From contig OY986438.1 in NCBI GenBank assembly GCA_963920525.1, positions 132,871,920-132,935,919 on the forward strand: DNA of 64,000 nucleotides. Direction: 5' to 3'. Below, in pieces: positions 1,841 through 59,808 of the stretch. Source of the stretch: Dichetophora obliterata. Taxonomy: Eukaryota > Arthropoda > Insecta > Diptera > Sciomyzidae. Within the stretch, counting starts at the first letter, position 1. Each line of letters begins with the position of its first letter. The position numbers and the translations under genes are program-made. Under the pieces are notes generated by a model. That model did no database searches and was not told the DNA's origin. It saw only the letters and a list, made by a program, of their open reading frames with translations.

Positions 1841-2145
1841 TTTTGACTGAATTCTCATGTAAATTCGAGAATATATCGGGGTGGGAGAAACTAAATGTTT
1901 TATTGAAAACTGGGGAAACTAGGTTTAAAGTAATAACACGGAGAGAATTCGAAGTGAATGGAACTAAAGGTGTTTTATTAGTGAACCTTAAACCAAACAA
2001 AGTTTTGAAAACAAGGCAGCGAGAAGCGCTGCCCAAAAGAAAATATGAAAAGAGTTTAAATGATGAGAGAACGACACTCCCGCGCTAGCGCCGGGCATCC
2101 ACCAGTGGCGTGAACATGCCACCCGCCTTGCAGGAATGCAAGACG

Positions 2146-3235
2146 TTACCAGGCACCCTGCTCTGATAAGACCCAACCAAAAATGGAGTTTTGGGCCAAC
2201 GGCATGCTAAAACCAGCCGGTAGAATGCTAGGCTGCATGACCCGGGAGTAAACATCGGTGCCCAACAGGATCCGAGCCGGTGATCTTTTGTAGAACTGAG
2301 GATCAGCCAGATTTATGTTTGGATAGCTTTGACTGATCCTCTCGTCTATGTCCTTAGACGGGGTGACGACCTCTAGATGCCGTTCTATCATCGCGGTGGT
2401 TTCAATGTGGACAGCCGATGTGAACCGACCACGAAGTGCCAGAGTGCAGACTTCTCTGCCGTCGACTACCGACGTAGGAAGTTGCCACTTTACGGCCAAT
2501 TCTCGGGGGATCCGGGTTTGCGAGAGGCAGGCGTCGAGTATGGCCCGCTCTTGGACAAGTAGTCCATTGGCCCAAGTACTGATGATGGCGGTTGGTAGTA
2601 GAGAAACTACCCGTTGAATGCTCGTCGTTACGGGTCTTGTGGGGGGGGACCGCTTCGGGAATTTGTCCCTCGACGATGACGCAAACGGTAGCATCGACTG
2701 CGGTCTCTTCTTGGAAGAGGACCGCTTCGGGACGTCGTCCCTCGACGACGACGCTAATTGGAACGTCGACTGCGGGCCCTTCCAAGGCGAACTCTTCAGT
2801 TCCAACCCAAACCCTCGTCGTTTGTCGGCAAGCTGCGGATGCAGGCTGTCGTTTTGGCTGCTTCGCGCGTCTTCCACGTGGTCTTCGGGAGTGTGCTCGA
2901 CTTAATCGGACCCGAACGTGCGTATGCAGCATGCTGTGGTGATCTTCACCGCAATGACGGCATCTGATATCGCTCCGACAGTCCTTTCGCATATGAACAG
3001 CTGAAAGGCAGTTGGAACAGTAAAAGTGGAGTAGTACTGTTCTCAACCGCTCCTCCAGGTTCATAGCTATGAACCGCCGGCACGACACCAGATTGTGCTC
3101 CATAGAGCACAAGCGACACTTTGGGATCGTGGCGCTGCGCGTCTCTGCGGTGTCAGGCTCACTTATGGCCATTTCAGAGTCCGTCTGGAGAAGCATCTCT
3201 TCAAACAAGTCGCGCACAAGGTTGGTGGTAGACAT
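2146..3235 (-). pseudogene. BEL-type zinc-knuckle plus retropepsin ORF, frameshifted
   Basis: The first in-frame ATG is at 3235 (minus), only 78 nt after the pol stop at 3313-3315. The N-terminal third has paired Cys/His knuckles (CRLCSMEHNLVSC, then CSNCLSAVHMRKDC, then CRHCGEDHHSMLH), like BEL/Pao Gag-Pol linkers. A basic stretch follows, then a roughly 66-bp internal duplication. After a run of eight C (plus-strand G at 2641-2648) the frame changes. The second frame, ending at 2146, carries the retropepsin-like region and its conserved end (LLGTDVYSRVM, then AQNSIFGWVLS). A one-base slip in the homopolymer explains the break. Zinc knuckle plus protease normally lies upstream of RT, so its position after integrase is unusual. 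It could be a second element's 5' part, or a genuine extra ORF of this family. Confidence 0.65.
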
Positions 3236-3312
3236 CCTGAGAGACGAAAACAAGAAGAAAAGAAAAAAGAAAGGAAAAGAAACGATTAAGATAAAAAGAG
3301 ATGGTGACGGAG

Positions 3313-4995
3313 CTAATTCGCTGGTAGCGCGATTAGTTTCACGATCGGTCGTGTATTACAACCTCTCTCGGTGCGAACATCAGCTACGCGAACTTTATTA
3401 TCGCTACCGACGTATGTTTTTAAAATTCGACCTTATCGCCATTCATTCGCTGGTAAATTATCTTCTTTGACAACGACTAAATCGTTGACATTGAAGTCTA
3501 ATTGAGGAATTTTCCACTTTGCACGCCGATGCATCTCTTTCAGGTACTCATCTTTCCATCGGTGGCAAAAATGTTGATGCATCGCCTTCACCTTTTGCCA
3601 TCGATTGACAAGAGAGAGTGGCTGATCAGATATTTCTGGCTCAACTGGCGAGAGCAGTGGGCCGCCAACCAAGAAATGACCTGGAGTCAGAGATTGAAAA
3701 TCAGAAGGATTTTCGGACATGGCGGAAAGTGGCCTCGAATTTAGACACGATTCGATTCGATTCAGTAGCGTAGTAAATTTCTCGAAAGTATACTTAAGAC
3801 ATCCGGCCATTTTTTTTAAAATGGTTCTTAATGCTTTTGACTCCAGCTTTCCAAAGCTTAAATATTAAATATGGGGAGCACCGGCTGGAATAAAATGCCA
3901 TGCGATTTCTTGATGACTATATTGCGCTAGTATGGCATAATGTGACGCACTTAGAAAGGTTTTAAAATCCTTTTTTAAGACATTTGAGGCTCCGACAAAG
4001 TTTGTACCATTGTCAGAGTACACATTTGCTGGGCAGCCACGCCTAGAAGCAAATCGAGAGAAAGCTGCTAGAAAAGTAGCGGTTGATAAATCGCTCGTGG
4101 CCTCCAGATGAATTGCCTTAGTAGAAAAGCACACAAATAAACAAACGTAGCCCTTACTGATTCGACAAGATCTACGTATGTAGCTTTTTATGTCGAATGG
4201 GCCAGCGAAGTCAATGCCAGTCGCAGCAAATGGCCGTGACATGACAGTTCGCTCGGCTGGCAGCGCAGCCATTATTTGCGTTCTTTGGCGTTTCATGTGT
4301 ACAACACATGTTTTGCAGTTATGCAGAGTTGATTTTATAAGATTTTTAGCTCGTGGGATCCAATATTGCATTCTGGAGCGCTTTTCTTCCCTATCGCGCG
4401 GACTGAGAGTACTAGCTTACGTGTTTCGCTTTCTGCATCGCACGAATGGGTGCACAAATGGGTGCGATGCAGAAAGCGAAACACGTAAGCTAGTACTCTC
4501 AGTCCGCGCGATAGGGAAGAAAAGCGCTCCAGAATGTCTTCATATTTCGAAAAATATGCAAAGTTTACTTTTACAGCTTTGCGCTCAAACGAAGTTTCTA
4601 GAGCTGGGGTTGGAGCCATGCTTGGAGCCATGCTTGGCCACGCTGACCGTTCGATTGTGAGCCAAGAAGGTCCATGCTACCAAAGAGCGTTGTCAACTAG
4701 CTCTTGTGGCGTAACTCCACGCGTTGCTAAGTCTGCAGGGTTTTCATGTTTATCTACATGAAACCAATTGTAAATTCCTACCTTCTCATCCACTTTTGAA
4801 ACTCTAATGGCTACGAAGGTTGTCCAGGAACATGGGGGCTTACAAAGCCAGGCAAGCACTATTGTAGAATCAGTCCAACAATACAAGCGATGCCTTTCTA
4901 TTTCAAGGTGCGATAATAAAGAATCTACCATATCTGCGAGAAGGGCTGCACCACATAAATCAAGACGAGGTAGCGGGATAACGATTATTTGTTGA
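3313..4995 (-). pseudogene. BEL/Pao pol fragment: RNase H, integrase, DUF5641
   Basis: Minus-strand segments in order: RNase H-like (4995-4677, with CWTDSTIVLAWL and ADLATRGV motifs), a linker with ILERFSSLSR, the integrase zinc-binding and catalytic core (4371-3865, with NCKTCVVHMKRQR, FAATGIDFAGPFD and YSDNGTNFVGA), and the C-terminal domain (3810-3313, with SRPLSAMSENPSDFQSLTPGHFLVGGP split across the motif). An in-frame TAA follows ANEWR near 3430, and the frame then resumes to a TAG at 3313-3315. Part of the integrase N-terminal zinc domain, between FRFLHRTH and QYWIPRAK, is replaced by the inverted duplication. The element is non-functional. Family assignment is firm, clade is not. Confidence 0.8.
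4369..4536. repeat. Perfect 75-bp inverted repeat with 18-bp spacer
   Basis: Arms 4369-4443 and 4462-4536 are perfect reverse complements by base-by-base reading; the spacer is 4444-4461. The right arm is the native BEL sequence, because on the minus strand it continues the pol frame (ILERFSSLSR onward). The left arm is the inverted copy and replaces integrase sequence. The perfect arms imply a recent event or gene conversion. Confidence 0.9.
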
Positions 4996-5000
4996 CTTCT

Positions 5001-7375
5001 TTGAAAAAATCATAACCGTTAGATACGTTTCCTGGCAGCCAAAGTTATGGATTGGCTCTAGTTTTCGATATAAATGTGCATGTGTACCGACGCATAATGC
5101 TTGATAATTATTGTTTTTGCAAAATATGTATCAGTAAGGGAAGAGATGAAGGCAAAAATGTTGAGCCAATGGCTGTAGCTATAAATTTGGTATGCAAGGC
5201 CATTACATCAAATTTTTTGTCATGTTGGCCTTTAAAGGAAAAGCCCTAAGGTTGAGCATAGTTTTTGTTTATTTAGGTTCATAAAACGTTAAAAATAAAC
5301 ATTTTAAAAAGGTAAATATAGCATTGCAAAGCAAATATCATCAGCTAACTTATATTATTGCATGTTTCTGCAAAGTAAAAGAATACAGCCAGTTTTTAAA
5401 ATAGTTAAAAAAATATTTATTTTTAAAATTGGCCCGTTGCTTTGACACAGAAACTTAGTTAGCAGCTTTGCTGCTCAAGGCGATTCATCAGTTTTCCGCA
5501 CCCTTTCTGTAAAAAATCGATTATAAACAACAAAATTACAATAAAAACTTTTTCTTCAGTCACATTCTTAAAATTATATATTTCTTGTTTTTTTTCTGAC
5601 AAGAATGTTTATTATAATGCCAAAACCTATTTAATCGTATAATTGATACTCTTTTGATAATGATTCTGTAATAACTCATCAACGCCAAAAATTTAACTAC
5701 CAAATTCAAAAACACAAAAATGGTTGAAAAAACTCTCACCGAATAAAGTTGAAAATGAACCAGTTTAAGTCGAAAGCATTAAAAAAAAAATACTAAAAAA
5801 TTTACACACAAATTAATAAAAAACGCACTTTCACAAACTTGCATAATATTATGGTTTTTTTAGTTATATAGAGTTTATAAATGGATTACAACATTTGTTA
5901 CACTGATCAGGTTGGAATGCATATTTGTTTTCCCATCTGTTTAGCTCTAGATTCAAATATTCTAAATTTTAATCAGCTTAAATATTAAATCCTCTAATTT
6001 TTGGCCTTAAAACTGTTGTCAAAATTATGCTAACACACTTATCAGCACAAACGCATTGCGGGTGTGCACACATACATATTTACACAGTTAATGAAACAAA
6101 GCATTGTGGTAAATATATGTTAATACAATCGATTTTTTGTAAGTACCTAGTTGTAGGCAAGTTTTTGTTTTTTGTAAGGGAAAACTTATGGTTTACGTTG
6201 CACAATAGTAATGATATTAATGTCAATTGCAAACAATCGTATGAAATTAAAAAAACAACTTAATATTCATATTTTTAAGGGTTTCTTTAGATAACTTTTG
6301 ACTTTTAACAGACAGTGTTAGCGTTCTCAAGACAGCATTCCTCACAAAACCGTATCATCGATTCTATTTCTTACCATCGAATTTTACAGCACCATGAAAT
6401 TTCTTATTTTTTTTTTACATGATGTCAATAGGGGATAATACTTAAAAATGGATTGTATGACAGGTTTTTTGCTTCGTCAAGAAATCAATTTTTCAGGATT
6501 ATCCCTTTAAAACTTGCTGCATTTTTTTCTTTTGCTATCTTCCGTGCTAGCCTTTAATTCGCAATTGCAGGTTGCTTTTATTTGTGAGGCGATGAAGTGG
6601 ATCTACATTGTAGCTGAGGCGTCAACAAACCGTATTTGACGCACAATTTATATCAATTGTAGCAAGCAATGTATACATTTTTCTTCCAGTGTTTTTCACG
6701 ACAAACTATAAAAGTCGTACATTCTAGAAAATTTTTTTCTTTTGTTACTAAAGAAGAATTTATAAGGTATCCGATATCTGTGATGTTGGTTCTTCTGCTG
6801 CTGTCATTGTCATGTGACAGATAGTAGAATGTAAATGGCTTGTAAATGATTTTTTCCTGCCGATAAGAGCACAAAAAGAAAAAACAGAGTAATGTTTAGA
6901 ACAGTTTGGATTTCTGCTTGAACGTGTGTGCATGTGTGTGTGTGTGAGTGCGAGTGTCGAAGTGTGGTTGAGCGAGTTTTAGACTTATAACATGTTTGGC
7001 TATAATCTAAGATACTTTGTTAGCCTAAAAGATATTTCGCACATGTTTTTTAGTGTTGCTATTAACTCGAAAACTATCTTACCGATTGCTATGAACCTGT
7101 TTTTTTATGTGTTGTCCCACTTTTTCTGATGGAAATGGAATGTGTAGTATTGCGATTTTAAAAGCATTTGCGAGCCATTGGAGGCAGTAAACCTAGTGAA
7201 TTTCGACTAAAATGGAAAAAAATGAATTTAGTTGTACTCATCAATCATTATTTTATGTGTTATAAACATATCACCGCAACCAAGGAAAAGCTAGAGTCTG
7301 TAGTCCCAAGTCCTTGGTCCTTCCAAGTGCTGGTCAAAGGTCTTAAAACTTTTTACTTGAAGTTCTGAAGTTTAG
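5001..7375. other. No gene seen; GT microsatellite
   Basis: No recognisable coding region or element. A short GT-rich microsatellite lies at about 6924-6965. The rest is AT-rich single-copy-looking DNA. Confidence 0.5.
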
Positions 7376-7810
7376 ATCTGGTGGGTGAGTACTAGAACGG
7401 GGTACTTGATGTCAATAACCTTTGGAGCAAAAAAATAGGTCTCAAGATACAAACATCGATATACGCATTATACTTTAAGATCAAACTCTAAATGCCGAAG
7501 CTATGACGTAAAATTTGAAAAGGTTCCTACGTTTGGCAAAATAAATTAAAAATATTTCTTTAAATAGTTCTACTGGAATAATCGAAATACTTACAAAGTA
7601 AAAAGTTTAATTATTTTTTGCAAGCTTTCTGACATTAGTGGTACTTCAGGATGGTGAGAACTGAAGATTTGGTGGAACGGGGTACTTGAGGTCAATGGTC
7701 TTTGAAGCAAAAAAAAATAGTCTTCTCAAGACACAAACGTCAATATGCCAAACATTAACATCGGACTGTAATGTCGAAGATATGACGAAACGTTTGGTAC
7801 AAACAAAATG
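7376..7810. repeat. Diverged tandem duplication, period about 290 bp
   Basis: Two copies of a block beginning ACGGGGTACTTGA.GTCAAT and continuing with a CAAGA.ACAAAC.TC.ATAT motif start near 7396 and 7677. They are clearly related but diverged. No coding capacity is recognised. Confidence 0.55.
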
Positions 7811-8435: not shown

Positions 8436-9408
8436 TTATTTATTTATTTATTTATTAATTTCATCTACTGGGCTTCGCCCTTACAGATTACTTAAAATAA
8501 AACTTATAAACTAGATTGATATGGTATCTAAATTAATAATTTCTTTATTTATTTACGGATTCAATCTTAAAGACTAATACATTTAATTGAATACAGTAAA
8601 TAAACTTAATCTGAATCTATACTCATTAAAATTGAAGTTATTAATTGAGAAAGACTGTTGCACAAATCAACGCACCTAGCAATTGATTCATTGGCAGCGT
8701 AAATTGTCCTATGCAAGGAATCAATGATTAATCTAGTATTTCTTAAAACTCTAGGTGGGTTGTAAACATGAAATAAACTAGACAGTTCTGAACACAAAAT
8801 TTTACCAGTAACAATATTATATGCAAACATTAAAGAAAAAACGTTACGCCTATCCTGAAGGGAGGTTAGACCATGAAATTTACGCCTAGCTATATATGAT
8901 GGGAGACCATCTTGCCAGCAAATTTTACTTAAAGCATATTTAGTAAAACGTTTCTGAACACTCTCAATTTTATTAGAGTGAACATCAAAATATGGATTCC
9001 AAATCAGGCAGCAGTAATCTAAACGACTTCTAACTAGAGCTACATACAGAGCCTTTACCATCAAAGGATCTTTGAAGTCTTGTGTATTTCTTTTTATAAA
9101 ACCAATCATAGAATATGCTTTGGCTACAATAAGGACTATATGTCTGGTAAATTTAAGTTTAGAGTCAAACAATACACCCAAGTCTTTGACTTCGTTTTTA
9201 CGAGAAATATGACAATTATTGACTGAATAATCGAACATTATTTGGTCGGAACATTTAGTAAAAGAGACTACACTGCATTTATTTATATTTAATAGAAGTT
9301 TATTTGAAACGCACCAATTGTTTAAAATATCTAAATCAGACTGCAGATTATGACTGTCTGAAAGCTTCGAAATTTTTAAATATAATTTAACATCATCCGC
9401 AAACATAA

Positions 9409-9855
9409 AGGCGAATTTACACGATTCACTATCATTGTTCACTTTGGATGAATCATCTGATTTGAAAAATGTAAATTGAGTTTCATCTTTAAAATGAAGA
9501 TGATTGTCATGCACATTGAACAGTGAAAGAAGTAGAAGGTCTTCCTACTTTTGATGAAAGTAAAAGCAAATGGAACTGATGTGTTATTCGTTCTGAAACA
9601 CAATTGAAAGGTGTTAACATAATTTTAAGCAGAAAGTTTATATTTTTTTTATTTAATTGCTGAACGGCTTTTATTTATTTAATTTTTTTAAACGTCAATA
9701 AAATTAATCAACCAAGGAATATATTTTGACATTCAACATCGAATCATCCACCAAATTTTAAATTTACACTTTGAATAATGTAAATTAAAAATTGATTCAC
9801 TGTCATCGTTCAACGTTCACTATCATCGTTTTGAGTGAAATGTGTAAATTCGCCT
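9409..9855. mobile_element. 447-bp MITE with TAA target duplication
   Basis: The terminal inverted repeat AGGCGAATTTACAC is perfect at both ends and continues imperfectly inward. It is flanked by TAA at 9406-9408 and 9856-9858. The insertion lies just before the FADD motif of the LINE RT, and removing one TAA copy restores the RT frame. A three-base TWA duplication suggests PIF/Harbinger mobilisation. No coding capacity. Confidence 0.8.
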
Positions 9856-10927
9856 TAAGACACTTTGAGTGTTGAAAGTGCTGCGGTAAATCATTATTAA
9901 ACACCAAGAATAGAAGCTGTCTACAATGAGTTCCTTGAGGTATACCGGAAAAAGCATCCACCAATATATCGGATTTTAAAGATCCAATCTTCACAAAAAG
10001 TTTTCTATTAGTTAAGAAACTTTTAAAGAACTTTATGAGATGGTCAGAGACTCTAAACTGCTTCAACTTATTTAAAAGAATAAGGTGGTCTGCTTTATCG
10101 AACGCTTTTGAAAAGTCAGTGTAGATAACATCTAACTGGCTATGATGCTCAAAGCTGTTGATTACACAGTGATACAAAAGTGAAAAAAAGAAATATACAG
10201 GGGTTCTCATGCAGCAATTCTGTTTTGCTGGAGTCCATAGAGTACGAAAAAACTTATACTTTTTCTCAGTCACTTCGTTAAGTAAGTTTTTTTATAACAA
10301 ATGTAGTGATATAACGATATTCCCAAAATTACAAGTTCAAAAAATCATAAGTTTACTCTGCATTAACCGATTTTCAAAATTTTGCTTTTATTTTACAGAT
10401 CTGATTTGTACTTTTTAACAAAAAAAAAACATTTTGGCAATCAGTTCAAAAATGGCTCAGTTACGGTCGATAAAGTAAAAAAAAAAAAATTAAAAAATGT
10501 TCATTTTCATCTCGCTCTAAATTGACCGTTTGGCAGAAAATTCTGCTTTTTTAAATTTTATTGACAATCATATTAAAGTAGGTTTCTAAAACAGGTAGGG
10601 TCATAAAAATCGGTTACAAAATGAATCAGTTACGCCAAGTTTTGTGATAACATGTCTTTTGCTTTTTTTGTGTTTTCTTAGAAATGTAAATATCTTTCAG
10701 GTAATAAAACAAGAAAACGCCTAATATACAAAATCATAGTTGGATGATTGTTACACTGTTTGTCTCAGCCAACGCTTGTTTACATTTCGCACTAATTGGA
10801 GTCATTATCCACATGTTTACATGCGTTTCTCCCCTTTCACGTCTTTTGCGTGGGTGACATTTTGCATCACAACAAACACGATTTTGTTTTTTCCTTTCCT
10901 ACTCACAACCGCACTAGTGCTGAATTA

Positions 10928-37642: not shown

Positions 37643-38038
37643 AGTTAAACAGATCGGTTTCTCGAAATAAAAACGACGATCCGGAGTTCTTTATTTAATA
37701 TTTATTTTTTGAGCTATGCTCAACTGTTTGCAATAACATCAAATTTGGAACTAAAGCTAAGAACTTTTACCAACAATCATAAGTAATAATTTTAATAGAA
37801 GAAGAAGAAGAATATTATAAAGAACTAAACTTCTAGGAATAACAAGTTTAAGATCATGGGAAAATGCAGTGTCTACATTTTCTCACTGTTGCAAGTTCTA
37901 TGTTATTTATTTCGCGAGCAGCTGGTCGCTGGATAGTCACGTTCAGCGCTCACATTACAGGTGGCTGGCTATTGTTGTCCATCGCTGTCGCTATCGTTGA
38001 ATGTTGATTCGTGGGCGTATTAACATGTGTCGTTAACT
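37643..38038 (-). repeat. 3' LTR of the errantivirus
   Basis: A 396-bp direct copy of the 5' LTR. The last codons and stop of env (to 38020) lie inside it. Confidence 0.95.
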
Positions 38039-39499
38039 CCTCCCTCTGTTAAATTCAAAACGTCCCTGTTTTGATCATTGATTCTGCTTAAAATTTCTTT
38101 AAGGTCCTTCTCTGCGTTTGCTGATAATTTCTTCTTCATGAATTGTCTTACGAGGAAAGTAACTAGTATGCTGATTAAACCAACAGTTGTTGCAAAAACC
38201 ATTATTATCCAATATGTCTGTTGTGATTGTACGTCTTTATTAATTGATGCGATTTGATTTGTGTTGTCTATATGTATTTTGTGGAGATACGGTAAGGATA
38301 ACTTCAATTCGTGCTGAAGAAACTTCATGTCCATGGTTTTTGGAGGGTGTGGTTGTGAAAATGTTGAATTCATTTTAGTTGCGAACCTTGTACCGTTAAT
38401 TTGTATGGATCCAGATGTAAACGTTAGTAAAAATGTTCCCGAGACCGTTAGATTTTGCTGGTCTGTGACGGTAGTATTTACGACTTCGTTCAAGATGATG
38501 ATTCCTTCGTCGATTTCTCGTACCAATGGTAAGTGAAATGCAGTTTCTGTTGGGCATGCTGCCGTGTTGTTATTTAAAAGTTGCTGCAAACATGATGATG
38601 TTGTCGGTTGACAAATTCGGGCGACTGATAAATCGGTGCAGTTTTTAACTGGTCGTGTTATGTCATGACAATTTGCTGCTTCACTAATATCTAACTTAAC
38701 AATTATTCCATTATGGCTTACGGGAAAAATTTTAATAAAGTCACAAAATTGGATAAGTTTAGGAACTTTTACAATATAAATAATGAGTTCATTATTTTGA
38801 AATACTTTTATAGTAGCAACTCTTAATATATTACTAATGCTAAGGGGTACGGCTTCAGAGTCGGTTAAATGACTGATTTCAATACTGTCTAATATTAGTG
38901 GATTAATTATGTTGTCTCTGGCTAGGACTATGGATAGAACCACATTGTTCAAGTGGTTAATGATAGCTGTATTTCGGTTTGCTATGAATTCTAATAATAA
39001 CGCTTCCCTACTTTGAAGAATATTGTTAGCGAAATGTCCTTTTTGGAGGATATTGATTCTTTCAGTCAATTCATTGATTTTTTCCTGTATGATTGAATTA
39101 ATCTTTGTTTGTCTGTTGTTGTTTTCTATTAACATTTTTTGTTTCGTAACCAATAATTCCCAATCCTCATGGTCAGGAGTGCCGGCTATGAATTTTAGTG
39201 CTGAGCCCAAAAAATCTATTGATCTAGCAAATCTTCTATTTACACGGATTGCGCTTATAATTCGTTCGATTTCCTGTATTTGTGCATCTATAATTTGCAG
39301 ATATTGCGAAATATTTCCAACTTTAGTGAGTGTGTCCTCTGTTTCGGTGATAATCCGCTGGTAGTCCGTCAGGTTTGTTTCGTGAATAAGGTACGTATAT
39401 TCGTCAAACACTGCTACTTTCCCATTAGTAACTGCTATGAAATGTGCCGGTGAATAATCAATTATTCTGGTTAAAGACTGTCGAAACAAATATATAATC
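38020..39499 (-). CDS. env: Errantivirus envelope glycoprotein (F-like)
   Basis: A membrane fusion glycoprotein related to baculovirus F and insect errantivirus Env. The open frame gives about 489 residues, but the first codon seen is TTG and the first Met comes only after residue 110, so the N-terminus and signal peptide probably come from a spliced leader exon joined at 39499. Visible features: a furin-type site RFAR (residues 86-89) directly before a conserved fusion-peptide-like region (FLGSALKFIAGTPDHEDWE), several N-glycosylation sequons, a Cys-containing ectodomain (CQPTTSSC), one membrane segment near residues 424-446 and a short cytoplasmic tail. The 3' end runs through the polypurine tract and 19 bp into the LTR. 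The frame is unbroken. Confidence 0.85.
38039..38047 (-). promoter_or_regulatory. Polypurine tract
   Basis: AGAGGGAGG on the minus strand abuts the 3' LTR. It lies within the env reading frame. Confidence 0.85.
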
Positions 39500-39501
39500 C
39501 T
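39500..39501 (-). promoter_or_regulatory. Putative env 3' splice acceptor
   Basis: On the minus strand a pyrimidine-rich tract ends CTTACTTAG just upstream of the env frame. Env has no usable ATG, so an upstream exon must supply it, as in gypsy. The donor was not identified. Confidence 0.6.
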
Positions 39502-39561
39502 AAGTAAGAAAAATAAGGGAAAAAAAATATATATGTAGAAAAGGAAAAGAGAAAGAAAATG

Positions 39562-42500
39562 TTATCTTAAATTATTTTTGTGTACTTTTTTCCCATTTAT
39601 TAGTACTGTTGTACCCAAATCTTCTTGTATTATGCCTTCTACAAAAACTTTGTCAAATTTGTTTCCTAATCGCCTATTTCTGCGAATAAAAACTTTATCT
39701 CCAGGTTGGTAAGCTTTATTAATACTTTTGTCGTGAGATCTGCGCACTGTGTTTTGCTGAGCCTTAATTAACTTACTCTTTATTATTTTTAGTTCGTCCT
39801 CCGTGTAACTATGTAGAATATCTATAGGTTTCTTGCCTGTAACGGAATGGATAGTGTTGTTATACTTTAGCGTTGCTAATAGAATTAAGTCCTCTGTATC
39901 TGTTATGTCATACTGCGCTTTAAGACAACGGGCTATTTCTAGAAGCGTTGAGTGTATTCTTTCTACTTGGCCATTGCTCTTGCTGTGCATTGGGGGCACG
40001 AAGTATTGTTCTATGTTGAAGTGATCCCTAAGAAATGTGGATATAATGTTGGATTGAAATGCTTTTTCATTATCCGAAACTAGAAGTCTTGTATTTTTAA
40101 ATTTCAAAAGGATTTGGAAAAGAGCTGTTTTGATATCTAAAGAGGATCTAGAGGTAATGGGTATTGCTGTAGCAAATTTTGAAAACTTGTCTATGCAAGT
40201 TAAAAAATGCTGTTTACCTGTAATAAAAATGTCCATATGTAAAATTTCTCCAGGGAAATTTGGCATGGGCGTTTCTGCGATTGCTATATTCTGGGGTTTC
40301 CGTTGGTACTTGTTTTCCAAACAGATCTTACAATTTGCAATGATGCCTTTAAGCATTTTTTTTATACCCGGGAAATAATATTCACTAATTATTTGTTGGA
40401 AGTTCTCTTGCAGCGATCTATGTGCGCGGTTATGCTCTGTTACTGCGGTTTCTAATTGGTCATCTTTATTTATAATATCAATAACTAGACGCTCGGTGTG
40501 AATAAATCTCACCGAAGGAAATGCTGTCACTAATTTGTCTTGAATGAGTGCCAAAGTTTGCAAATCGCAATGAATGGCGTTAATGGTATTAGGGTTGATG
40601 GTGTCTGTTAGGTATTTTATTAAGGTATCAGTAGTAGTAAAATTCATGGTATGCCGGATAAATTTTTGAAATATAATTTTTGTACCCTTAAAGCTGTGAG
40701 ATGCTTGAGACAAGATAAACTGGTTTTTAAACTGGTTAACTGGGAATTTAATAGTCTTTATAACCTGTGACAAGGAAAGTTCACTGTGTACTGTTGCGTC
40801 GACCGAAATTTCTGTCATTGCGTTAAGGTATTGCCTGCTCAAAGCATCAGCAACTTTGTTTTCTTTTCCTGGTTTATAGTGAAAAGTGGGTGCAAATTCT
40901 TCAATAAACGCGCGCCATCTTTTGATTTTGGAATTCGGGTTGCGATCGGAAATTGCGAAAGTAAGTGGTTGGTGGTCGGTAAAAATATGAATATTTGTTA
41001 TTCCATACAGGTAATGTCTCAAAGCCTGTAGAGCCCATACTATTGCTAATAACTCCCTCTCGTTAGTCGCGTAATTTTCTTCTGTCTTCGCAAGTGTGCG
41101 TGAAATCATTGTGATCGGTCTACCTTCTTGTGATAGCACTGCTCCTAATGCTACACTAGAAGCGTCTGTTGTCAGTTCAAATGGCTTAGTATAGTCGGGG
41201 TGTGCTAAAAGAACATCTTCGGAGGCCAGGATATTTTTCAGTTTTTTAAAAGCAAGACAGGCTTCTTCGTCAAATTCTATCTTTTGGTGTTTTGAGTGTT
41301 TTGTTCCAATATGACCATTTTCACCGCGGAGGTACCGTGTAAGGGGTTTTGCTATTTGCGCATAGTCCTTAATAAATCGTCTATAGTACCCTGATAATCC
41401 AAGGAATGAACGCAGTGATTTTAATGTTTTGGGTTTTTCGTAATTAAGGATAGCGTGAACTTTATCGGGACACGTTTTTATACCTTTCTCGGAGACAATA
41501 AATTCAAGAAATTCTACTTGTGTCTGAAAAAATTTAGACTTTTCGGATGAGACTCTCATGCCTGCTTTTTCAAGTTTCTGAAGTATTCTATTAATGTGCT
41601 CTAAGTGTGAATTTTCATTTGGGGAGTAAATTATTATATCGTCAATGTAAACATGGCATATCTTTCCTATGTCTTCTCTTAGAATGTCGTCTATTGCTCG
41701 TTGAAAAATGCTAGGTGCATTTTTCAGTCCAAATGGCAAGCGACAAAATTCGTATTTGCCGTTATTAACATTGAAGGCTGTTTTCTGTCTATCGTCTTGG
41801 GCAAGTATGATTTGGTGGAAACCAGATTTTAAATCTAAAGTAGTAAAAAATTTTGATTTGCCAAGATTAGCTAGTATTACAGAAGTGTCAGGTATGGGGT
41901 ATCTGTCGGGGACCGTAAGTTCGTTGATTTTTCGGAAGTCAATTACCATTCGTAATTTCTGTTTACCATTTACGTCTGCTCCCTTTTTGTTCACTATGTG
42001 TATAGGAGAGTTGAATGGAGAATTTGATTTTTGTATAATTCCATCTCGCAGTAAGGATTTTATTTCTTCATTGACAAATTCAGCTGCTGAAATCGGGTAA
42101 GGGTAACCTCTTGTGTAAATAGGGTTTTCTGTTTTTGTTTTTATAGACGCTTGCACTGTAGTGTTATAAGGTAGAGCTCTATCGGGATCTGCAAATGCAT
42201 TTGCATTTAATGAAATTATAGATTGAAGACGATCGAGTAAATGTGATGGAACCGAATCTAAATCTAGTATAATTGAGTTGACTTCTTGGTAGTTTTGATG
42301 CGTCAAAAATTCTTTGCCTGTTTTGTGGTGCAGAATGCCTTTTTTTACGTCTATTAAAGCTTCGATATCTTTGAGAAAATCGTAACCTAAAATTCCATCG
42401 AAATTTTTAAGGGCAGGTAATAGATAAAAGGTTGCTGTTTGGTTCAAAATGTTTACTTTACATTCCTTTTCTATAATATTCGTACCATTTACGGAGCTTA

Positions 42501-42650
42501 CTTTAAAGGGTTTAACGACTGCTTTAATATTGTTTAAAAAACTATGAGGCTTAATGTAATTCTTAGATGCCCCGGTATCTATTAAAATGCGAAGCTCTTG
42601 GCCATTTTTGTTTTTTTTTGTTATGAATGGCAAGAGCGACGTTAGCCTAA
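39562..42650 (-). CDS. pol: Errantivirus Pol (PR-RT-RNase H-IN)
   Basis: No initiator ATG: the frame is entered by -1 frameshifting from gag near 42650. Counting from the TTG codon at 42633 (1023 residues), domains are: aspartic protease with LIDTGAS (Asp19); reverse transcriptase with LPFGLKNAPS and the YIDD catalytic box at 329-332; RNase H with TTDAS (Asp490), NERE (525-527) and FTDHQP (Asp553); integrase with an HHCC zinc site (His734, His738, Cys768, Cys771), core Asp801, Asp854 and Glu891, and a GDKVFIRR C-terminal region. All key residues are present and the frame is unbroken. It ends about 60 nt before the env acceptor. Products replicate and integrate the element. Confidence 0.95.
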
Positions 42651-43814
42651 AAAATTTATTTCTTCGGTTTCAGTGTGTTCATCATTTACGTAGACACTTC
42701 CCTCATTTTCCTCCTCATAAACGGAATCTTCGACATCAGGGTCATTTAAAGGCTCTCCCAGCATGCAATTGATTCTTTGCATCTTATTTTGCATCATAGA
42801 ACTGCGTCCGGAGGAAATCTGCTCGCGTTCTCGCTTAACAGCGCGATTATGGGAATCGTACTGTTGCGATTGATATTGTTGTTGTTGCTGTGGCAGCCTG
42901 TTGCTTGAATTGTTGTTATTTTTTCTGAAAACAGACGAGCCTGGGTCAATTTCCATTGGAATAGGTTTATCCCCTGACTGCTTAGGTCTATAAGATGGGT
43001 GGGAATTGTAATTAAGGTTTTTTGGAGGTAATTGTTGTTGTGGTCTGTTAATTTTGATCAAATTGCCTGCAGCAAATGTTTTAGCAAAATCATGTCTTTT
43101 TTGATTTGTTTCTAGCTCTTGAGCGGTTGCTAAAGCCGAGGGAAGATCAGCAGGTTTTGCTGAAAACAAAATATCGCACAATGGCCGTCGCAGACCAGAG
43201 ATAAAAACTCGGAGGGCGTTTTCTCGTGCGCGTTCGTTAAGCACAGAAATGACATCTTCGTTATTACTATGTGTCATCTTATTTTTGTCCAGTATTAAAG
43301 TCAGTTGTTTATCCACATTGTCATAATAGTCAATGAGAGAACGGTTGCCTTGTCGAAGAATGCTAAGCTCGTTTTCCAGAACATGAATTGGTCTTCTGTC
43401 CGAGTAACATTGATCTAATCTTGCTATTATGGCCTTAAAATTAAGAATTGTATTAAAAGAAGAAAGCGTTGCGTTAGCTGAGCCGGTTATTTTATTTCTA
43501 AATATTCCCATTGCTATGTAATAGTGTTCTGAACCTTCCTTGTAATAGTTAATGGCAAAATGAGCTGCTTCTCGCCAAGCTGGATATGTTGAAGCATTTC
43601 CGTTAAATTCTGGTATAGATTTAATAAGATCTAAAGTCGTGCTCTTATTTTGAATATTTGGTAAAATAGTAACTGGAGCATATGACTCCACACTTGGTAG
43701 GCTCAATTGGCCAATAGCGTTTGTTATGCCTTCCAACTGGGTGGTAAGGCGACCATTCAATGCCTCCACAGCTGCATTAACTATGGTAAGCACTTGTTCT
43801 CTAGTAACTTCCAT
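42642..43814 (-). CDS. gag: Errantivirus Gag
   Basis: Structural polyprotein that packages the element RNA. The open frame extends further upstream, but I place the start at the first ATG (43814, MEVTREQVLT), giving about 390 residues, ending in TAA at 42642-42644. Features: a capsid-like central region (PEFNGNASTYPAWREAAHFA, then residues up to LRVFISGLRRPLCDIL), a Gln/Asn-rich low-complexity C-terminal part, and an acidic tail ending INFLG, similar to the gypsy-group Gag C-terminus. There is no CCHC knuckle, as usual for errantiviruses. The last codons overlap a slippery site leading into pol. The frame is unbroken. Confidence 0.9.
   Translation of the reverse strand: MEVTREQVLTIVNAAVEALNGRLTTQLEGITNAIGQLSLPSVESYAPVTILPNIQNKSTTLDLIKSIPEFNGNASTYPAWREAAHFAINYYKEGSEHYYIAMGIFRNKITGSANATLSSFNTILNFKAIIARLDQCYSDRRPIHVLENELSILRQGNRSLIDYYDNVDKQLTLILDKNKMTHSNNEDVISVLNERARENALRVFISGLRRPLCDILFSAKPADLPSALATAQELETNQKRHDFAKTFAAGNLIKINRPQQQLPPKNLNYNSHPSYRPKQSGDKPIPMEIDPGSSVFRKNNNNSSNRLPQQQQQYQSQQYDSHNRAVKREREQISSGRSSMMQNKMQRINCMLGEPLNDPDVEDSVYEEENEGSVYVNDEHTETEEINFLG
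42648..42654 (-). promoter_or_regulatory. Ribosomal -1 frameshift site, gag to pol
   Basis: The minus strand reads T TTT TTA in the gag phase, two codons before the gag stop. A -1 slip enters the open pol frame directly. This heptamer is a well-known retroviral slip sequence. I did not establish a downstream stem-loop. Confidence 0.8.
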
Positions 43815-44273
43815 TTTTTTATTTAAAAAACAAAACAACAAAAAATATTTAAACAGGTAATTAACTGTTAACAAACAACCAAACAAACATTAACTAATCA
43901 CAACAAAAACTCAATGAAAGTGAGAAAACAAAAATCCGACATTAATATTTTTCGCAATAACCATACAAATAAAATAAGCCAGAGACGTTAAAAATACTTG
44001 AAATCAATCACTTACAAAAAAAAAATATTTCTTGTTTATTTTTTACATAAAGACTCTGATTCGTACTTACATAAAGATTATTATTTTCATCTTAATAATT
44101 TTTAAATAAAATAAGACAAGAAGAAAAAATGTTCACAAGAGATTGGTCGTCTGCTGCTTTGGGATGCTGTTGATTCGCCTCTTCAAGTAGTCAATTGGTT
44201 TTCCTTTGATTTAATAAGACTTCTTCAATTGTTTTTTTTTTACTCAGTTGCTCTTATATCTCAGCACTCTCAA

Positions 44274-46875: not shown

Positions 46876-47246
46876 TCTGCAAACTATCATGGGCGTCCGC
46901 AGTTTACGGAAGATTCAAACAACTTCCTAAATTGTATATGTTATTGTAAGTTGCGCTCAAACTTGGGGATTTTAGAACTTGTTTAATAAAAACGTCGTTT
47001 TTAGATGTAGGAGTGTAAAATTGGGCAGGATCATGTATTTTGATAAATTGCATCAATAATGAATCAAAAAGTCGACTTAGAATTATTGTAACTTACGGCT
47101 TTTTTGATTTTATATGACGATATATTCATAAAATATATGTCAATATATTTTAAAGAGAACTCAAAAATACTTCGTTTACGGTATATTTATAAATAAAGCT
47201 GAGCTAAACCATGCATGCATTTTTAAATAGTATGTTGTACCCGTCG

Positions 47247-48806
47247 CACAGTGCTTTGTCCCAGTACATCGATGGGACAAAAATAGAAGGATTAGTCTTA
47301 GGTCCACAAAATTTCGTATGATGTTGTATTTGGAGTAAGCAAAAAAAAAAATCAAAATTTGGTTCTAAACGAATGAAATATTCTGGTACCTCCCATACAA
47401 AAGGTATAGGGATCCCGAAAATTCAAAGCGCTGTAACATCCTAACAGAGTGTGCAAATTTTACCAAACTTTCTAAACTGCATGATTTTTAATTTAAAAAA
47501 TTTAGTGCCAAATTTTAAAGAAATCGGATTACGAATTCTGGTACCTCCTATACAAAGGGTGCAATGGGTCTCGAATCAGACAGCAGAGTTTCAACCAAAC
47601 TTTCTAAAACATTTTTTTTAAGGCAAATTTAAAAGAAATCGGACCACGACTTTTGGTACCTACCATATAAAAGGTGCAATATTTCTCTAATATTTATACG
47701 TTATTTCTAATAATATAACGTGATACAGCATATTTAATTGTTTTTATTAGCAAAATACCAACATTCACATTTGGTCATTATCAATCAAGTGCAGTATGAA
47801 CAAAAAATTATTTATTTTATCGATATTGCTATTTCTTTTGATTAAAACTAAGCATCAACACCACAGGAGTCATCCCAAATCAATATTTTCTCTGTGTATA
47901 TATTTTCCAATACCAGCCAAATCAAAATAATTTTTTTTATGTTCCTCTTTGATGATAATACGGGATCTGAATGCAATAACATAAAGGTTGAAGCTACAAA
48001 TATTGGTCGATTATCCTCTAATTTGCCTCAAATACTTTTGTATGGGTACTACACAAGCTGAAACTTTGAAATTGCAAATAAGTTGATTTGTAAGTTTTTA
48101 AGATTTTTTGAAATCATCGCCGAAATAGCCCCCTAAAATTTTTTTCCTAATTTTACCCTTCGTTAGGATCCCAAAATACATCTCTTCCAGAGTGTAACTT
48201 TTTCAAATTAAAAAAAGTACCTTTCCACTCCACGCTAATAAGCAACCTGGCAGCGGTGAATGAAAATGTGAATTTAGAACTTTTTTAAAACTATTTTTTT
48301 TTAAGTTGCGGCAAAAAGCGGGCATAAATTCTTTCTTGGACCTTCTAAGAACACTATAAACTAAATAAAAACAAAATAAAAAAATGTTGGATTTGTCGGA
48401 TTTTTTTTTTTAATTCCATCAAACTTTTGTAATTTTTAAAATTTTTTAGAAAAAGATATTATTTGCAAGCGATTACAAATAAATCCAGTTAACATATTCA
48501 ACACATAATTTTTTTCTGAGTTCTGCTTATACTAAATAACACAAAAACTGAAATTTCAAGCTCTTTCTTAAAAAAATTAATTTTTGGGAATTATTTTCTA
48601 GAAGCAATACAATTCAGTTTTTAATTCATTAATTTTTGCTTAAATTTCGTTGACTTAAGCGCCCTCTGGTGAAGTGTAGGAGAGTTAAACGAAACTATTT
48701 ATTTCAAATTTATTTGAGTTGTATTGTTATCTATCGATTATTATAACTTTTATTATATTTTGAGACAATTTTTTTTTTATTTTTGTCTATGAGACAAAGC
48801 ACTGTG
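47247..48806. mobile_element. Non-autonomous Transib-type element with RSS-like ends
   Basis: The 1560-bp element has inverted ends CACAGTGCTTTGTCCCA (left) and CACAGTGCTTTGTCTCA (right, reversed). It is flanked by identical CGTCG at 47242-47246 and 48807-48811. A CGNCG-like 5-bp duplication and CAC..TG ends are hallmarks of Transib, the group related to RAG1. The left end has CACAGTG, 23 bp, ACAAAAATA; the right end has CACAGTG, 13 bp, ACAAAAATA. This mirrors V(D)J recombination signals (CACAGTG, 12 or 23 bp, ACAAAAACC). The interior is non-coding; three diverged copies of a TTGGTACCT..CATA..AAGG block start near 47389, 47539 and 47656. Mobilisation by a Transib transposase in trans is inferred. 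Confidence 0.8.
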
Positions 48807-49017
48807 CGTCGCAGTGATAAGTTAATATACCATTTCATTCACCCTTGTTTCACAGGCACTGTTTGGGATTTTTTCCCAAACTTTGAAATATTTAAAACCG
48901 CATTGACGCCTCCCACTTAAGCTTTAAGTCTGATATTTATAAATTGAACAAACTGGTTTTCTATTCTTTGCTAGCGCAAGTTGTGTACCAATTTGCAATA
49001 AGAATAACTGTCCACAT

Positions 49018-49695
49018 TAGTCTTGGGTAGTTGATTTTCGTTCTTTTAGTTCTTTTAGTTCTTTTAGTTCTTTTAGTTCTTTTAGTTCTTTTAGTTCTTT
49101 TAGTTCTTTTAGTTCTTTTAGTTCTTTTAGTTCTTTTAGTTCTTTTAGTTCTTTTAGTTCTTTTAGTTCTTTTAGTTCTTTTAGTTCTTTTAGTTCAATC
49201 AATTTTGCAGCGAGTCAGATCGAAATGAACTAGAAAAACTTTATTCAACAATTTTTTGAGTCCGTGCTGATACAGTTTTTCGCTAATGAACGGTAAAAAA
49301 ACGTTTTTGGAAAAACAAGATTTTGTGGCAAATATTGTGTGGCATGCCCCATATGTATTGTAGTATTTTTATGCAAATTTCTTCTATGTCCACAGTTAAT
49401 GATTGATTCGGTCAAATAGTTCGTATAATTTAATAGATCTGATCATGAACGAGTAAACAAAACGAACTAAAAGCCCTATTGAACTAAAAAATATAACGAG
49501 CTAACATACCTAACGATCTAAAACACCAAACGAACTATAAGACCTAACGAACTAACAACATGAACGAGTGCACGAAACGAACTAAAAGAGCGAACGAACT
49601 AAATGAACTAAAAGAACTATATGAACGAACTAGTTCATTAAATTCGACTGAACTAAGAAGAGCGATCTTTTTGTGAACTAAAATACCCAATCCTA
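49018..49695. mobile_element. hAT-like fold-back element with satellite arms
   Basis: Ends TAGTCTTGGGTA and, reversed, TAGGATTGGGTA match at 10 of 12 bases. The flanking duplication GTCCACAT is perfect (49010-49017 and 49696-49703) and fits the hAT pattern nTnnnnAn. The left arm is a perfect 17-unit array of TTCTTTTAG. The right part (about 49455-49640) is a degenerate array of the complementary unit (GAACTAAA, GAACGAACTAAA). It is organised like Drosophila FB elements, but with a hAT-type duplication. Non-coding. Confidence 0.75.
49041..49193. repeat. (TTCTTTTAG)17 minisatellite
   Basis: 153 bp of perfect 9-bp units. Lys-Glu-Leu or Val-Leu-Leu repeat frames across it are artefacts of the array. 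Confidence 0.95.
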
Positions 49696-54757: not shown

Positions 54758-54850
54758 TTATATGATTTAAATACAAATTCTTAATGTTTGATAGTTTAAA
54801 TCATACTTGATTTTAAATACAAATTCTAGTTGTTTGATAGTTTAAAATCG
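54758..54850. repeat. Short two-copy tandem repeat
   Basis: TTTAAATACAAATTCT and GTTTGATAGTTTAAA occur twice with a period of about 50-55 bp. Confidence 0.5.
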
Positions 54851-55284
54851 TTTATTGAGCTTAAGGTCAAAGTTAGAACAATTAATTGTTCTAACGAATC
54901 TTTCCAAAGAAACAACAACAACGACAAAGTTTTTTCAATATGAAAAGGAAAAAATCACTAGTTGATCTGATTTTCTGGCACAATTTCTGCCTGGCTAAGG
55001 GCGTCATCAGAAATCTTTGTGATACCCGTGCAAGCGCGCACTAACGCACTGCACCACCGGGGCGATGAGATTTGAAGTGTCAATTTCTCAGTCTTTCTCA
55101 ATTTTCATAATTTCACATTTGTTGTTGTATTTCTGTTTTACTTTAGTCTCTATGCTTATGTTATTATATGTAGTCCAGCAGCCTGCTGGAAGTCTGCACT
55201 AACAAAGGTAACTATGCACTGTTATGCTCTGTTATGGTAACTATGAAATGGAGCACATTCAGCCCTTACACTACCTTGTTTAGT

Positions 55285-59385: not shown

Positions 59386-59808
59386 AGGGTTTTCATGCAA
59401 ATGGGCAATACCCTTATAAATGGTATAAACCTTATAAGTTTATCAGCCTTATAAATGAACTGTCAAAATTCGTATGAAAAAGCTTTTGCACAAACCAGAT
59501 AAATTTGCTCTTCGATTTAGGTGAGCAAACGAGGTGGCAAACTTATATGATCAATCAGCTGTTTTCTTTTTTGAAGGAAAAGTTATAATTTGAGCAAAAC
59601 TAATAAAGATTTAATTCTAAAAATTTCAGAAAACAAGCAAACAATCCGCAAAGCGTCCCTGTTTAAATGGAACGAATCGCTGGCAGATCGCACAGCTGAC
59701 TTATATGCTGCAAATGCACAATCGACTTTAAGGGCTGTTCATACAACCTGTCTGATAAAAATAACTAATTGCCCAAATTAGAAGCCTGCCACTTTGCATG
59801 AAAACCCT
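59386..59808. mobile_element. 423-bp MITE
   Basis: Ends AGGGTTTTCATGCAAA and its perfect reverse complement. A TA or AAT duplication is possible; the flanks are too AT-rich to decide. The CCTTATAA.T motif repeats inside the left end. Confidence 0.75.

Follow-up and report, generated by a model that had tools for sequence, protein, structure and literature searches.

The 1560-bp element at positions 47247-48806 of the window (the whole 64,000-nucleotide stretch of Dichetophora obliterata DNA analyzed here) very probably arose by internal deletion from an intron-containing Transib DNA transposon and was mobilised, as a non-autonomous element, via two unlike ends that both begin with CACAGTG. 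The spacer between the heptamer and an inner nonamer-like motif is 23 bp at one end and 13 bp at the other, and the evidence from the host genome supports this asymmetry as a stable feature, inherited across a group of related elements and not private to the window copy.

Structure and setting of the window element

The element has perfect 14-bp inverted ends (CACAGTGCTTTGTC), which begin with the CAC heptamer found at the inverted ends of the Transib superfamily. The left, 23-type end was read on the forward strand as a CGTCG flank (47242-47246), the heptamer CACAGTG (47247-47253, within the inverted repeat 47247-47260), a 23-bp gap (CTTTGTCCCAGTACATCGATGGG, 47254-47276) and the nonamer-like motif ACAAAAATA (47277-47285). 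The right, 13-type end, read as the reverse complement, has CACAGTG (48800-48806, within the inverted repeat 48793-48806), a 13-bp gap (CTTTGTCTCATAG, 48787-48799) and ACAAAAATA again (48778-48786), with the right copy of CGTCG beyond it on the forward strand (48807-48811). The heptamers, CGTCG flanks and 23- and 13-bp gaps given in the original prediction were confirmed by this direct reading, as was its remark that the shorter gap is one off the canonical 12; the spacers are 23 and 13 bp, not exactly 12 and 23. The two gaps differ by 10 bp, about one helical turn. The longest inner word common to both ends is the 10-bp GACAAAAATA, a match that was reached 7 times when the ends were shuffled 5000 times and 10 times in 5000 random draws of window segments. 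Each end also holds a short palindrome that the original prediction had not mentioned: TTTGTCCCA/TGGGACAAA on the left (47255-47281, most of it within the spacer) and TTTGTCT/AGACAAA on the right.

The interior contains a 68-bp repeat present three times in diverged form between 47354 and 47691 on the forward strand (47354-47421, 47509-47576 and 47624-47691) and, on the reverse strand, a relic of the last exon of a Transib transposase (47869-47988; tblastn E=3.7e-9 in the window, 55% over 40 amino acids). The longest stop-to-stop frame is 69 codons, and the window element is therefore non-autonomous. Its ten stop-to-stop frames gave two weak, unrelated matches and nothing else in Pfam, and Rfam gave no match at the gathering threshold.

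The chance level of such a structure was estimated from 100 dinucleotide shuffles of the window. Inverted 14-bp pairs within 6 kb and with identical 5-bp flanks arose at 0.01 per shuffle, and none of them started with CAC. The real window has two 14-bp pairs with identical flanks: the element itself and 59386-59808. The latter spans 423 bp, has inverted ends AGGGTTTTCATGCA, is flanked left and right by TAATA, and is possibly a small transposon.

The element lies among gypsy-like, BEL-like and LINE sequences. An errantivirus-type, Gypsy-like element occupies 38020-43886 on the reverse strand and contains frames resembling gag, pol and env; its env frame matches Pfam Gypsy at 1.4e-95, and the named relatives of its gag come from Ceratitis capitata. 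Also on the reverse strand are retroelement fragments with rve and DUF5641 matches, probably BEL/Pao-like (2146-4371), and LINE-like reverse transcriptase fragments (8606-10273). Eighteen tandem copies of TTTTAGTTC lie beside the element at 49035-49196. Inverted copies of GGGGTTCTCATGCAGCAATTCTG and the sequence following it lie about 2.1 kb apart, at 10200 and 12328, each with CACAGTG just outside.

End pairing across the host genome

A search of the host assembly (1.31 Gb, 76 contigs) gave at least 88 matches to the window element, which belongs to family 1. Forty loci were examined, comprising the window copy, 20 of family 1, 11 of family 2 (copies about 4.1 kb long), 3 fragments and 5 of family 3. 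Two ends were kept at 32 of the 40 loci, in three related families; L130, L144, L145, L146, L160, L161, L162 and L180, which are without two ends, were left out of the pair count. All 32 two-ended loci pair one 23-type with one 13-type end, and no like-ended copy was found among them. Their 5-bp flanks are identical in 28 cases and agree at 4/5 positions in the other four. The original prediction had been staked on other copies not having symmetric ends and on the 5-bp flank being duplicated elsewhere, and it held on both counts.

Thirty of these pairs were tabulated. The spacers are exactly 23/13 in 28, L142 is 22/13, and L138 has an eroded nonamer that makes its spacing ambiguous (it was scored 14/23 once). 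Identical 5-bp flanks are present in 27 of the 30, with 4/5 agreement in three (L131, L132 and L136). As L121 and L129 share flanks, and L166 and L169 likewise, the 30 tabulated pairs represent 28 insertion sites. Transib duplications are 5 bp long with a CGNCG-like consensus; here the consensus is C-G-N-C-G (C in 28, G in 27, a mixed third position, C in 29 and G in 25; n=30). The two extra pairs, L164 with L189 and L173 with L188, have ends about 16 kb apart with intervening DNA that was only partly read; the first pair has identical flanks, and those of the second agree at 4/5 positions. No mate was found within 5.9 kb of a 13-type end at L171:2392(-).

An empty site with a single CGTCG, by which the original prediction was to be checked, is present for the window copy. 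When the sequences flanking the copy are joined, they align over the junction without interruption to an unoccupied paralogue in L128 (~221-533) that has one CGTCG; the insertion therefore made a 5-bp duplication. Two cases are weaker: for L134, the relative L143 covers the junction and has a 2-bp gap next to it, and a repeat within the window itself, near 54818-55147, is gapped at the junction. In the neighborhood of other copies, L173 has about nine matches of one host repeat at ~574-bp steps (~2500-7460), a tandem array beside a family 2 copy, and L136 has a Tigger/pogo-like transposase (1936-3448, reverse strand; DDE_1, HTH_Tnp_Tc5) nested in a 23/13 copy.

Ends were also counted genome-wide by pattern. 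The strict pattern CACAGTGCTTTGTC-N(3-20)-GACAAAAATA had 38 exact matches in the genome and none in the control, 28 of them of the 23-type and 10 of the 13-type, with none at the other 16 allowed lengths. A looser pattern, CACAGTGNNNTGTC-N(2-22)-ACAAAAAT, had 246 matches in the genome and none in the control. Among 100 listed of these 246 ends, the spacer is 23 in 52 and 13 in 39 (91 together), the remainder being 12 (three), 28 (two) and 16, 19, 21 and 26 (one each). A separate class of 12-bp ends was considered and rejected: the three cases are variants of 23-type ends with an inner A-tract, in which the motif at 23 is intact (L193) or decayed (L194, L195). Neither L194 nor L195 has a partner end within 3 kb. 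Four candidate pairs from other end families are 13/23 in every case, with flanks agreeing at 5/5 positions in L191 and L193, 3/5 in L190 and 2/5 in L192. The only candidate like-ended pair seen is at G000 C1:51296684-51302549, where 23/23 ends of two different end families face each other 5.9 kb apart with flanks CGTCG and CGACG (4/5). The exact end pattern had no match in viral_contigs or genome_contigs. The 14-mer alone was present in at least 120 stretches of viral_contigs, with a single match each among the 80 listed; these were read as chance and rejected as related ends.

Transposases between unlike and alike ends

The RAG1-core-like DDE transposase of the Transib superfamily is encoded by family 2 copies, and the window copy keeps only the last-exon relic. 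The family 2 gene has four exons and points away from the 13-type end, towards the 23-type end. Splicing and translation of five copies (L171 and L167 were left out) gave stops or frameshifts in all of them. As for the autonomous partner called for in the original prediction, an intact source gene was not found among these five copies. The D, D and E motifs that the family 2 transposase has in common with HzTransib (Helicoverpa zea; PDB 6pqn), a homologous transposase, are taken here to be the catalytic residues. A read-through of L166, with X at two stops, matched HzTransib (6pqn) at E=1e-95 with 41% identity, and ProtoRAG RAG1L weakly (E=0.028). A 14-row tree places the family 2 protein with an unnamed protein of 69% identity, on the side of HzTransib; four further transposases of this genome, to which it is 31-35% identical, stand apart. 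The transposase pieces of family 3 share 52-74% identity with family 2. RAGL transposons have a RAG2-like gene next to the RAG1-like one; among frames of at least 120 amino acids, L163 has only its two transposase pieces.

The window copy has no transposase gene apart from the last-exon relic, and it aligns piecewise with a family 2 copy at 70-88%. Together, the relic and the piecewise alignment identify the window copy as an internal-deletion derivative of this lineage. The Transib identity assigned in the original prediction was borne out by the transposase gene in related two-ended copies, the CGNCG-like 5-bp duplications and the empty site.

The same genome also contains alike-ended Transibs. 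Three of the four other transposases are bounded by ends of the CACTATGG or CACAATGG type whose 5-bp flanks are identical, and by eye there is no length offset between the two ends. L174, L176 and L177 are members of such other Transib families, with flanks CTGTG, CGCTG and CAATG and long open transposase frames; the ends of L175 were not found in the stretch examined.

Readings of the unlike ends

The favored explanation of the window element is that Transib transposase from longer relatives would bind the CACAGTG ends and excise the element, which would then be joined into a CGNCG-like target, the 5-bp stagger becoming the duplication. Each element has its 13-type end 5' of the transposase gene and its 23-type end on the 3' side, and presents heptamer and nonamer-like motif at fixed distances that differ by about a helical turn between the ends. 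The lineage's own transposase presumably moved the window copy. The nonamer-like motif is a putative contact site, and the unlike ends may make it easier for the enzyme to bring one of each type into synapsis. Points against this explanation are that none of the five spliced family 2 copies is an intact source gene and that the window copy itself lacks a transposase, together with the 22-bp spacer of L142, the eroded nonamer of L138, the 3/5 and 2/5 flanks of L190 and L192, and the substitution rates at the 23-end of family 2 and near the 13-end of family 1.

Those rates formed part of a comparison of the ends with the interior. The 39-bp 23-type end is identical in families 1 and 3 and has one different base in family 2, and the 13-type end (29 bases) has one difference in family 2 and five in family 3, with no length change; between families 2 and 3, DNA identity is 67-72% over longer inner stretches and ~86% over the first 266 bp. 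In family 1 there are 11.7 (23-end) and 15.7 (13-end) substitutions per kb at the ends versus 50.6 inside, and the stretch adjoining the 13-end, at 17.3, is as low as the 13-end. In family 2 the 23-end (8.5) and the interior (9.8) do not differ, and the 13-end has none. The low substitution at the ends points to constraint, but only suggestively, because the copies were chosen partly by their recognisable ends.

Stable asymmetry alone does not amount to a pairing rule. It is nearly an even prospect that the asymmetry is inherited baggage, left by an old 10-bp indel in the palindrome loop, and that the enzyme reads only the terminal ~14 bp, whatever the spacing and the nonamer. Both ends share TTTGTC..GACAAA arms, and a loop indel would produce exactly such a difference; moreover, all copies come from asymmetric ancestors, and their uniform pairing is therefore not independent evidence of function. 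The alike-ended L174, L176 and L177 have evidently moved in the same genome, and the available portion of PMC7204232 describes invertebrate RAGL enzymes as expected to depend on the outermost ~15-17 bp, with asymmetry making no difference to them. However, family 3 keeps the spacing and the nonamer-like motif despite four changes in its 13-type spacer and the loss of the palindrome there, and several further end families keep 13 and 23. Spacer length also changed only once in 30 copies, versus 6.8 gap openings per kb inside family 1, in a sample whose ends were partly selected as recognisable.

A pairing rule may nevertheless operate in this lineage. Such a rule would be RAG2-free, with the transposase reading heptamer and nonamer at 13/23 spacing and synapsing one end of each; this is held here only tentatively and is somewhat unlikely.

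It is improbable that the palindrome TTTGTC..GACAAA is itself the functional inner signal and the nonamer likeness a by-product of its A-rich arm. Families 1 and 2 have the palindrome at both ends, and family 3 has it at the 23-type end; when the window was cut into 1422 tiles of 45 bp, only 24 contained a stem of at least 8 pairs. Family 3 separates the two readings at its 13-type end (CGTCGTTCCATAGAC), where the palindrome is lost and the 13-bp spacing and the nonamer-like ACAAAAAT are kept.

Another candidate for the autonomous partner, a 652-amino-acid transposase within the 23/13 copy L147, was rejected as very unlikely. L147 (355-9174), which has 23/13 ends and an exact duplication, contains a LINE and a long open frame that matches HzTransib at 5.5e-87. 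However, the frame is 96% identical to that of L174, which has CACTATGGG.. ends and its own 5-bp duplication, and it belongs with that CACTATGG-ended element; the transposase between the 23/13 ends of family 2 is a different one, which shares 31-35% identity with the CACTATGG group. L147 most plausibly reflects nesting or recombination. The probability of a chance inverted repeat with RSS-like letters is negligible: CACAGTG by itself is frequent (13 sites in the window), but chance is refuted by the shuffles, the family of copies and the L128 empty site.

Asymmetric Transib ends are already known as a kind, and what is new here is a well-sampled example in one genome. The available portion of PMC8355894, after Kapitonov & Jurka 2005, reports almost perfect 12 or 23 +-1 spacers in some Transibs, such as Transib5 of Drosophila melanogaster and Transib2, N1, N2 and N3 of Anopheles gambiae. 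Compared by description only, these resemble the present elements in having RSS-like heptamers and nonamers, ~12-bp and ~23-bp (+-1) ends and partly non-autonomous members, and differ in that here three families and many insertions come from one genome. Transib Subgroups I and II differ in the type of C-terminal tail (CTT1 or CTT2). Subgroup I is all asymmetric and Subgroup II mixed in the accessible text of PMC9435367, and the elements here are asymmetric as are Subgroup I and part of II. ProtoRAG asymmetry and HzTransib symmetry are described in the parts available of PMC8289069 and PMC7204232; the HzTransib TIRs, unlike the ends here, are symmetric with little nonamer similarity (PMC8289069). 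ProtoRAG (27/31) and AanRAGL (4/13) have, in the available text, bipartite asymmetric ends and 5-bp duplications (PMC8289069, PMC9435367), as do the present elements, whose ends consist of 14-bp and 10-bp elements 15 or 5 bp apart; ProtoRAG and AanRAGL own RAG1L and RAG2L genes and have other end sequences. V(D)J recombination signals, which recombine only as unlike pairs, have the identical CACAGTG and a 23-bp spacer in common with the ends here, and ACAAAAATA matches ACAAAAACC at 7/9 nonamer positions, whereas their shorter spacer is 12 bp rather than 13 and the ends here are a transposon's and are not known to respond to RAG. A literature search found no publication on this particular Transib family, which is not proof of absence. 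As asymmetric 12/23-like Transib ends had already been published, what the original prediction saw in them for the origin of the 12/23 rule is not new.

It has long been asked whether vertebrate RAG invented the 12/23 rule or took it over from transposons. Earlier examples of asymmetric Transib ends came from a small number of elements of flies and mosquitoes and from broader surveys. This one genome has numerous paired insertions, ends in the hundreds, most of them at one of two fixed spacings, and several transposase families, and the alike-ended Transibs alongside form a natural control, so that the question can be put to a direct test with defined substrates. If a RAG2-free rule of this kind is true, 12/23 logic would exist in the transposon cousins of RAG1, perhaps as a device against harmful like-end pairing in a genome crowded with hundreds of ends.
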